A stretch of DNA of 64,000 bases, taken from positions 1 through 64,000 of the forward strand of contig SVPR01000004.1 in the NCBI GenBank assembly GCA_015065785.1, in the 5' to 3' direction. Positions 5,744-58,170 of the stretch are shown in pieces. Below the pieces are notes generated by a model. It was not told the origin of the DNA, did no database searches, and saw only the letters and a list, made by a program, of their open reading frames with translations. Each line of letters begins with the position of its first letter. Position 1 is the first letter of the stretch. A program made the translations under genes and the position numbers. Source of the DNA: Oscillospiraceae bacterium. GTDB taxonomy: Bacteria; Bacillota; Clostridia; Oscillospirales; Acutalibacteraceae.

Positions 5744-5897
5744 AGAAAACAGGAAGCAGGAAACAGAAAACAGAGCTTCGCAAAAAACAAATTCACCTAT
5801 CATTTAAAGTTGGTCAAGTAATCAACTAAAAATGATAGGTGTTTTATTTTCAACTGTTTTCTGTTTTCTGTTTTCTGTTTCCTGCTTCCTGTTTTCT
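5744..5897. repeat. Nested inverted repeat: 30-bp perfect outer arms made of heptamers, 12-bp perfect inner hairpin
   Basis: Outer AGAAAACAGGAAGCAGGAAACAGAAAACAG (5744-5773) and its reverse complement (5868-5897); inner CACCTATCATTT (5794-5805)/AAATGATAGGTG (5830-5841). Confidence 0.9.
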
Positions 5898-6819
5898 ATC
5901 TTACTATCTTAGTTCCATCAAACACAATAACCCCGTGTCCGCTACCTGTTTTGCCACCGTTTAATACATGTTGCTTGAAAGCACGGCGCATTGATGTGTC
6001 ATCGTACCAATGCTTTGGTGATTTATAACCGGACTTTGCAAAAATTCTCCACGCATCGTTAAATTTATCTTTTGTCTCGCTTTTAATAATTTCAAAGTCA
6101 TTTATAAATTTAACTGTATTTGAATTTTCAGGTAAAATTTCTTTATTGCCCTCATAAAGAAGCCATGAGCCACATTCAAATATCATAAGTCCGTCTTCTC
6201 TTCTCTGGTCCTTAAAGAATTCATAAGCCTTTTTGTAAGCATCAAGGCGAATTTCATCTGTAAGCGGTACGCCTGATGACGGAATGTGAAAGCCGACTGT
6301 TTTGTCGCCTCTTTTAATTTTAACGCCTGCACTTGTAGTGAATTCATCAACCACACCGAATGTAGAATATTCAAACTGGAAGCGACCTAAAGCGAAACGG
6401 TTAAGCTCATAAAAGCCTGTGTTCCAGCTACCAACGAATGTACCATAAACCTCTTTGCATTCAACGCATTCCTTGAACTTATATTTTAAGTCCATTATTG
6501 TAGCCCAATAAATATCTTCACTGATACCCTTTTCTCTGTAAAGCTCTAACATCTTTTCACTTGCAACAATAAGCCACACAAAAGTCAGGCTATATTCCTT
6601 AACTCTGTAAAGTATAGCTAATTTTTTCATATCGTCACACATATCGCCAAAGTCGTGTGCCTTTGGTGTCATATATTTTTCTAAACTAGCCTGGAATCTT
6701 TTGGAAAAGCCTTTACTTTTTTCAATTTTTAATGCAATGCTTTCAAAAAGCTCAACTGCTTCTTTGGGAAGCTCTAATTTTTCTTCAACTAATTTAAAAT
6801 GTTCGTTTAAGTATTTCAT
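5896..6819 (-). CDS. Conserved hypothetical protein (307 aa; family not confidently recognised)
   Basis: Long ORF, no recognised catalytic motif. Confidence 0.7.
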   Translation of the reverse strand: MKYLNEHFKLVEEKLELPKEAVELFESIALKIEKSKGFSKRFQASLEKYMTPKAHDFGDMCDDMKKLAILYRVKEYSLTFVWLIVASEKMLELYREKGISEDIYWATIMDLKYKFKECVECKEVYGTFVGSWNTGFYELNRFALGRFQFEYSTFGVVDEFTTSAGVKIKRGDKTVGFHIPSSGVPLTDEIRLDAYKKAYEFFKDQRREDGLMIFECGSWLLYEGNKEILPENSNTVKFINDFEIIKSETKDKFNDAWRIFAKSGYKSPKHWYDDTSMRRAFKQHVLNGGKTGSGHGVIVFDGTKIVR

Positions 6820-18009: not shown

Positions 18010-18086
18010 AATATCACCCGATTATAAATTACATTATATTATAACATTAAAATGGGTGAAATGTAAAGGGTTTAGAGATAGTTTAA

Positions 18087-18469
18087 TTGAAAGTTGAAAA
18101 TTGAAAATTGAAAATTTCGGAAGTCCTGCGGACTTGATTATATTTAATTGAATAAAAACAACTAAGTTCTATCATTTGTACCAGTGGTCAGTGAGTCAGT
18201 GGTCAGGAAACAGGAAATAGGAATCAGTGAACAGAAAAAGTTCTATCATTTGGGGTTTACAAAAAACTTTAAATGATAGAACTTAACTTTTTGTTATTTA
18301 ATTATAATTGCCAACGCAGTTCCGAAATTTTTAATTTTTCATTTTTAACTTTTAATTATAATTGCGTCGCAGACCCACAATTCCGAATTACGCATTACGA
18401 ATTCCGAATTATAATTGCCGACCGCAGGTCCCACAATTTTCAATTTTCAACTTTCAATTTTCAATTATA
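18087..18469. repeat. Composite repeat region: several heptamer arrays, hairpin, and AATTATAATTGC/A units
   Basis: TTGAAAG|TTGAAAA x3; CAGTGGT/CAGGAAA array; hairpin 18238-18284; ATTTTTA, AATTCCG and AATTTTC heptamer arrays. Confidence 0.85.
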
Positions 18470-18501
18470 ATTACAGGCGTAGCCCTTTTATTCTGCATTT
18501 T

Positions 18502-21217: not shown

Positions 21218-21295
21218 GTTTTTCCACGATTTTTCTTGCACAGTGCTACTAAAAATAGTTAAAATTTGTAACTTTTTAGGCAAATTAACAATGCT

Positions 21296-21633
21296 CAGGA
21301 AACAGGAAACAGGAAGCAGGAAGCAGGAGTTCGCTACGCGAACATTGAAAATTGAAAATTGAAAATTTCGGGGCTACGCCGTAATTATAATAATTGGCTA
21401 TAGCGGTAAATTGACTTTTTCATTTATACTAATTACAAATATTAAGATTTTAATATAAAAATTCTATCATTTTTAGTTTATATCAAACTTCAAATGATAG
21501 AATTTCTTGTTTTTATGGATAACTATTACAATCGCCGACCGCAGGTCCCACAATTTTCAATTTTCCATTTTCCATTTTCAATTATAATTGCGTCGCAGAC
21601 CCTTAATTCTGCATTCTGCACTCTGCATTCTGC
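21296..21633. repeat. Composite repeat region: heptamer arrays around a TATCATTT hairpin
   Basis: CAGGAAA|CAGGAAA|CAGGAAG|CAGGAAG; TTGAAAA x3; hairpin 21459-21505; AATTTTC x2|CATTTTC x2; ATTCTGC|ATTCTGC|ACTCTGC|ATTCTGC. Confidence 0.85.
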
Positions 21634-57501: not shown

Positions 57502-57660
57502 GACTTCATTATTCATTATTCATCAGCGAGTTTACGAGCGACTTCATCATTCATTATTCATTGAAAATCCGTTCTTTTAATGAATAGTGAATAATGAATA
57601 TTGAATAATGAATAATACAAAACGAAAACCCGTCCACTATCGTGAACGGATTTTCGTTTT
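57502..57660 (-). repeat. Heptamer-array module plus terminator downstream of tRNA-Ala, homologous to 127..285
   Basis: Shared terminator core, GTATTATTCATT array, AAGAACGGATTTTCAATGAATAATGAAT, CGCTGATGAATRATGAATAAT. Confidence 0.85.
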
Positions 57661-57735
57661 GGTGGAGACGGTGGGGCTCGAACCCATGACCTTTTGACTG
57701 CCAGTCAAACGCTCTCCCAGCTGAGCTACGCCCCC
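57660..57735 (-). tRNA. tRNA-Ala(GGC)
   Basis: GGGGGCGTAGCTCAGCTGGGAGAGCGTTTGACTGGCAGTCAAAAGGTCATGGGTTCGAGCCCCACCGTCTCCACCA folds as cloverleaf. Confidence 0.95.
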
Positions 57736-57872
57736 ATGTTTGAAGTAAGAAGTAACAGTGAAGAGTGAAGAGGTGAGCAATACCTATTTACAGCTGATAT
57801 ATTATTATAACACATAGTACTGTTTTTGTAAAATAAAAATTCTTTATAAAAAACAATTTTTATTTAATGAAA

Positions 57873-58039
57873 TATTTTGCTGAAGCAAAATATGAAATAA
57901 TTATCTACGATAATTGTGAAATTTTCTGCTTACGCAGAAAGTGAAATAAAATTCGCCATCAACATTTACGAAGTAAATATTTCACTGCGAAGCAATTTCA
58001 CATTACTAAGTAATATTTCACTCGCCGCAAGGCGAATTT
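57873..58039. repeat. Array of seven mini-hairpins separated by GTGAAAT / ATTTCAC
   Basis: Stems TATTTTGC/GCAAAATA, AATTATC/GATAATT, TTTCTGC/GCAGAAA, ATTTAC/GTAAAT, TGC/GCA, ATTACT/AGTAAT, TCGCC/GGCGA. Confidence 0.85.
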
Positions 58040-58043
58040 CATT

Positions 58044-58089
58044 GCACCAACAAAAAGGCACCGCCAAAGCGATGCCTTTTTGTTGGTGC
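58044..58089 (-). terminator. Terminator-like hairpin overlapping the 3' end of tRNA-Leu
   Basis: 17-bp GCACCAACAAAAAGGCA / TGCCTTTTTGTTGGTGC. Confidence 0.75.
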
Positions 58090-58170
58090 CGGTGGTGGGA
58101 CTCGAACCCACACGATGTCGCCATCAACGGATTTTGAGTCCGTCACGTCTGCCAATTCCATCACACCGGC
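58084..58170 (-). tRNA. tRNA-Leu(CAA)
   Basis: GCCGGTGTGATGGAATTGGCAGACGTGACGGACTCAAAATCCGTTGATGGCGACATCGTGTGGGTTCGAGTCCCACCACCGGCACCA, class II variable arm. Confidence 0.95.

Follow-up and report, generated by a model that had tools for sequence, protein, structure and literature searches.

The stretch analysed here (hereafter the window) is 64,000 nt long and covers positions 1 to 64,000 of the forward strand of contig SVPR01000004.1 (assembly GCA_015065785.1, an Oscillospiraceae bacterium). It carries an array of small hairpins between a tRNA-Ala and a tRNA-Leu gene. An earlier note, made from the letters alone, had described seven hairpins with inverted separators in this tRNA setting, together with a pairing between the middle and the end of the array. 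The sequence and the tRNA calls agree on each of these points, and the coordinates it gave were correct to within a few bases. At its full extent the array is slightly wider (57866-58043), with seven perfect stems and loops of 3-4 nt. The features of the locus are as follows:

57660-57735, minus strand: tRNA-Ala(GGC), the neighbouring gene distal to the element
57865-57952, plus strand: second, weaker match to Rfam Gut-1 (43 bits), the other arm of the element
57866-58043, sense strand minus: full hairpin-array element, with four TGAAAT and four ATTTCA separators, seven hairpins and a central clamp
57872-57893: hairpin L1, ATATTTTGC-TGAA-GCAAAATAT
57899-57915: hairpin L2, AATTATC-TAC-GATAATT
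57923-57940: hairpin L3, TTTCTGC-TTAC-GCAGAAA
57949-57957: central clamp copy AAATTCGCC, able to pair with GGCGAATTT at 58031-58039 (the mid-array/end pairing)
57964-57978: hairpin A (apex), ATTTAC-GAA-GTAAAT
57974-58044, minus strand: match to Rfam Gut-1 (RF01706), 69.1 bits against a gathering score of 50, full model 1-77
57986-57994: hairpin B, TGC-GAA-GCA
58002-58014: hairpin C, ATTAC-TAA-GTAAT
58022-58035: clamp hairpin, TCGCC-GCAA-GGCGA
58031-58039: clamp 3' arm, GGCGAATTT
58044-58089, minus strand: outer hairpin adjoining the array, presumed tRNA-Leu terminator, arms 58044-58064 and 58069-58089
58084-58170, minus strand: tRNA-Leu(CAA), the host gene, with the element at its 3' end

The TGAAAT separators begin at 57868, 57893, 57917 and 57942, and the ATTTCA separators at 57979, 57995, 58015 and 58036. 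In a model of the fold, the 4+4 inverted separators could pair across the two halves and form a ladder with a hairpin at each junction. The outer hairpin is strong, and its stem takes in the final 6 nt of tRNA-Leu (3' GCACCA). Of the terminal inverted repeats and target-site duplication that define miniature inverted-repeat transposable elements, the array ends AATGAAAT/ATTTCATT were seen.

Folding of the array gave a minimum free energy z of -6.45, with 0 of 200 shuffles folding equally well. The array holds 6 non-overlapping hairpins (stem ≥5), whereas 2000 dinucleotide shuffles averaged 1.26 and never held more than 5, so that it exceeded every shuffle in the comparison of hairpin density that the earlier note had proposed. 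The counts of G.U and A.C for the transcribed strand were 4 vs 1, too few cases. A CRISPR array was rejected for 57866-58043, as the note had also held, since the separators are inverted and 6-7 nt long, the inserts are palindromic, and there is no constant repeat with unique non-palindromic spacers. A plain promoter or terminator account was likewise rejected: the outer hairpin is terminator-like, yet the array lies beyond it.

A dispersed family with two Gut-1 arms

The claim that no named element type fits did not hold, because Gut-1, which Rfam classes as a small RNA (sRNA), makes up the array's right half. The left half matches the Gut-1 model on the opposite strand, and Gut-1 is therefore one arm of a two-armed unit. 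The main-text passages of the 2010 report by Weinberg et al. (PMC2864571) describe Gut-1 as a stand-alone noncoding RNA of uncultivated gut bacteria, known only from human gut samples, and mention neither a second half, nor an IVP gene, nor dispersal. The genomic anatomy argues for Gut-1 as an arm of a larger unit rather than a stand-alone noncoding RNA.

The window's own genome contains 13 Gut-1 matches, and three sites are inverted pairs, each pair forming one unit. Gut-1 is also present in 40 of 60 relatives, with up to 48 matches per genome, so similar arrays do occur in related genomes, as the earlier note had asked; it had overlooked this dispersed family, along with the outer hairpin and the IVP gene beside complete copies. 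Subfamilies differ in their separators (GTGAAAT, GTGATAT, GTTATAT, GCGATAT and others) and clamps (TCGCC, CCACCC, TTGCCC), and in each the second-half separator is the reverse complement of the first-half separator. The plan of 4+4 separators, clamp and outer hairpin is common to the window copy and the IVP-bearing copies.

Stem sequences vary while pairing is retained, as had been proposed. Compared with a sister copy of almost full length elsewhere in its genome (C14:20865-21037), the window array has four stem pairs altered on both sides and none on one side; one stem is 1 bp shorter on both arms, and three loops are altered. In a set of 43 distinct arrays covering three separator types, stems of ≥5 bp occupied 51-83% of hairpin slots, depending on the slot, compared with 1-3% in letter-shuffled versions, most arrays being counted on both strands and one slot with four cases being left out. 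A 3' arm swapped in from another element fitted in 2-7% of comparisons.

An IVP gene linked to the arrays

In complete copies, a PF05635 gene (23S_rRNA_IVP; TIGR02436) co-directional with the array lies just past the last separator, behind a promoter-like sequence. It encodes IVP, a four-helix-bundle protein of ~118 aa with PDB relatives 2rld and 2gsc. In 60 genomes, at least 12 IVP matches have a same-strand Gut-1 match at a distance of 125-174 bp, whereas ~0.04 would be expected by a hand estimate; the IVP list across genomes comprises at least 150 matches. Among the matches listed, copy numbers of Gut-1 and IVP per genome were correlated (Spearman 0.72; 0.78 outside the genus). One phage scaffold and one viral contig also carry an array with IVP. 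In L215, an IMG/VR viral contig, two tandem GTGAAAT arrays precede a single IVP gene, and in L043 the start of IVP is truncated. A tblastn search with two IVP proteins found no IVP in the 64-kb window, hence none beside the window array, and the window's open reading frames (ORFs) were rejected as the array's partner gene, as none matches IVP.

Each of the 22 genomes with ≥10 Gut-1 matches has an IVP match, and the same genomes bear on two other candidate movers. Hairpins, inverted halves and dispersed hairpin-side copies would suit, as a class, REP/BIME-like or IS200/IS605-like elements, in which a Y1 (HUH) transposase recognises single-stranded-DNA hairpins and moves the array, and the window's own genome has one Y1 match. 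However, Y1 count did not follow Gut-1 copy number (rho 0.09), and 11 of the 22 genomes lack a Y1 match, including G009, G024 and G039 (estimated ≥95% complete), which makes this explanation very unlikely. Group IIC introns insert after terminators. Junctions beside terminator-like hairpins, as for class IIC introns, would accord with retro-mobilisation by a DGR-like (diversity-generating retroelement) or group II intron-like reverse transcriptase acting in trans with an Avd-like IVP, and Avd, the accessory protein of diversity-generating retroelements, is indeed a relative of IVP (PMC10053308). Against this, 18 of the 22 genomes lack a match to the reverse transcriptase domain RVT_1 (10 lack both this and Y1), the correlation with copy number was -0.04, and we consider the explanation highly improbable. 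The window's own genome (83.6% complete) gave 0 RVT_1 matches.

IVP genes occur with two kinds of flank. Chains of at least four hairpins were found upstream of 26 of 110 IVP loci, a level that two loci reached in any of ten shuffles. The upstream and downstream flanks share an inverted repeat of ≥13 nt in 41 of 110, compared with 1 in shuffles; the inverted flank repeat was present in 0 of 11 loci with chains of ≥5 hairpins. In this second type, 7-10-nt tandem repeats bracket the gene in opposite orientations (e.g. GTCAGTG... / ...CACTGAC), and the same flank surrounds plasmid IVPs of Treponema, Nostoc and Bernardetia. Nearly all array-type IVPs fall in one clade of the IVP tree (60 rows, SH-aLRT 98), on which flank type changes 4 times. 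Separator type changes 11 times, the least possible being 9, compared with a mean of 27 and a minimum of 22 after shuffling. Since separator changes are this few and the array types belong mostly to one clade, array and gene have diversified together.

A small protein gene directly downstream of a repeat array would also be expected of a type III toxin-antitoxin-like pair, in which the repeat RNA neutralises the protein. Yet scanning IVP returned only PF05635/TIGR02436 and related subfamily models, with no nuclease family; most arrays have no IVP among the matches listed; and the second IVP type is flanked on both sides by short tandem repeats, with no folded array. Such a pair therefore appears extremely unlikely.

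Short repeats resembling IVP flanks also occur in the window. AAGTAAG/AGTGAAG repeats lie at 57740-57779, before tRNA-Ala, and a similar sequence forms the 3' flank of the IVP gene in G001 and G021. ATTCATT-type tandem repeats and their inverse occupy 57540-57617, past the tRNA-Ala terminator; because copies of ~90% identity adjoin IVP genes (G021:C77, G001:C36), this array appears to be a copy of the second type that lacks the gene. More 7-nt tandem-repeat arrays, some with their inverse behind them, lie at 171-215, 5747-5900, 18085-18470 and 21295-21590.

Probable insertion sites and turnover

Elements sit right after the CCA of tRNA or tmRNA genes, or around a stop codon. At tRNA and tmRNA genes the outer hairpin mostly begins right after CCA or one base on, and for 16 of 56 arrays ARAGORN identified a tRNA ahead of the array. 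An outer hairpin of ≥8 bp adjoins 30 of 56 arrays with flank, compared with 16 of 218 control positions, although the array strand was picked by outer hairpin, which favours the 30/56. At protein genes the outer hairpin can include the stop codon (L018, L030, L107). Behind secA, its 3' arm matches the end of the strain's own coding sequence in G000, G015, G001, G018 and G021, whereas an ordinary terminator follows secA in more distant genomes that lack the element.

The secA hairpins are consistent with the hairpin-copying idea of the earlier note. They also speak for neutral template switching (quasi-palindrome correction) that copies arm onto arm in an otherwise inert repeat, as does the fact that the two GTGAAAT copies of the window's own genome differ by two-sided stem changes only. 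Template switching nevertheless leaves the fixed 4+4 architecture, the subfamily-specific separators and the IVP link unexplained, and as a full account it is quite unlikely.

The same site differs strongly among close relatives. Behind tRNA-Leu(CAA), the element is of the GTGAAAT type in G000, the CCACCC type in G015, the GTGATAT type in G011 and the ATGTAAT type in G002 and G018; a tandem-repeat-flanked IVP occupies the site in G001 and G021, and a plain terminator in G004. The tmRNA site holds several subfamilies, with unlike types in G000 and G018 despite tmRNAs that are 98% identical, and plain terminators in G015, G006, G020 and G004. In our reading, these differences reflect a favoured site at which elements have repeatedly inserted or replaced one another.

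This turnover bears on whether Gut-1 is instead a structured RNA useful to the host (an sRNA, trailer or 3'-end stabiliser) under selection for folding, with IVP as a passenger or partner protein. The strong conserved folding, the full compensation of stem changes, the position of the sense strand downstream of RNA genes, the sRNA class in Rfam and the noncoding-RNA description in the passages of Weinberg et al. (PMC2864571) all favour such a role. However, the same site in close relatives may hold the array, lack it or carry an unrelated subfamily, the arrays are located past terminator-like outer hairpins, and multi-copy dispersal follows IVP. On balance, a host RNA of this kind is unlikely.

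Two further observations concern these sites. In L233 (G019), the tmRNA 3' end and terminator are duplicated in tandem. In L036, L039, L067, L071, L227 and L228, a recurring hairpin-rich insert (CGGCGAAGCCGAACACAATCGGG...) lies between duplicated tRNA/tmRNA 3' ends and is possibly another element class using such sites.

Interpretation and relation to known systems

Taken together, these results indicate that the window array is probably an orphan, IVP-less copy of a small IVP-encoding mobile element that resides after the ends of RNA genes or coding sequences. A complete copy reads, on the sense strand, host gene end, outer hairpin, array, promoter-like sequence and IVP gene, the array itself running from four TGAAAT-separated hairpins through the central clamp to four ATTTCA-separated hairpins. 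IVP, by family a relative of the DGR accessory protein Avd, would be the mover: it may bind the array through separators and hairpins and direct copying or insertion beside the hairpin at a gene 3' end, with host enzymes supplying strand cleavage and synthesis. The likely intermediate would be single-stranded DNA folded into hairpins. Array-only copies such as that of the window would arise by loss of IVP and could be mobilised in trans, and quasi-palindrome template switching may maintain the perfect stems of the element.

Several points weigh against the mobile-element interpretation. No transposition has been observed, the window copy itself has no IVP, and at least 143 of 156 listed Gut-1 matches have no IVP nearby among the matches listed. 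Neither a target-site duplication nor an exact 3' boundary was established, and we know of no catalytic residues in IVP. Gene conversion, or recombination among repeats, could account for part of the turnover, and most genomes of the relatives are drafts or assembled from metagenomes.

It is conceivable, though we propose it tentatively, that these elements form a new class of transposable element whose sole gene encodes a ~118-aa four-helix-bundle protein in which no nuclease, recombinase or polymerase domain is known. The protein would act on hairpin or inverted-heptamer arrays via host enzymes. If so, the class would be widespread, occurring in many families of the window's order and on plasmids of Treponema, Nostoc and Bernardetia, and a single system would account for Gut-1 RNA, rRNA intervening sequences (IVSs) and many intergenic heptamer repeats. 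An unexplained gut RNA motif is tied by these results to a probable type of bacterial mobile element not recognised before. Gut-1, an unexplained RNA family, gains a context and a partner protein, PF05635/TIGR02436, a family of unknown function, gains a likely role outside rRNA, and the strong differences behind tRNA/tmRNA genes among close relatives are accounted for. The co-diversification of separator and IVP makes the role of IVP, and the mover of heptamer repeats and IVSs, directly testable. The link between Gut-1 and IVP, their co-diversification and the element anatomy are new; a literature search that covered few subscription journals or preprints found no paper linking IVP with repeats or Gut-1.

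Among known systems, REP/BIME sequences with their REP-associated tyrosine transposases (RAYTs) likewise consist of dispersed palindromic units, some in inverted pairs, but the present elements have no Y1 link and many unlike hairpins per unit. The DGR accessory protein Avd belongs to a family homologous to PF05635 (PMC10053308), whereas reverse transcriptase is missing from most high-copy genomes here and does not follow the elements. Heptanucleotide repeats (TAACTGA arrays in Beggiatoaceae, PMC4679880; cyanobacterial short tandemly repeated repetitive sequences) are short intergenic direct repeats like the flanks of the second IVP type, but those flanks are inverted around the gene. The 2015 Beggiatoaceae paper proposed a repeat-binding protein as a possible mobile element, and its text makes no mention of an IVP-type protein (four helix, S23, intervening). 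The 23S rRNA IVSs are also candidate selfish elements encoding the same protein family (IVP/S23p), and a mobility role for the IVS ORF was proposed by Ralph and McClelland in 1993, as cited in a passage of PMC4990558. They differ in lying within 23S rRNA, whereas the present elements follow tRNA, tmRNA or gene ends and bear hairpin arrays; the window array, between two tRNA genes, is outside 23S rRNA and thus not an IVS by location. Gut-1 itself matches the right half of the window array over its full length, but its 77-nt model describes half of an element of ~178 nt.
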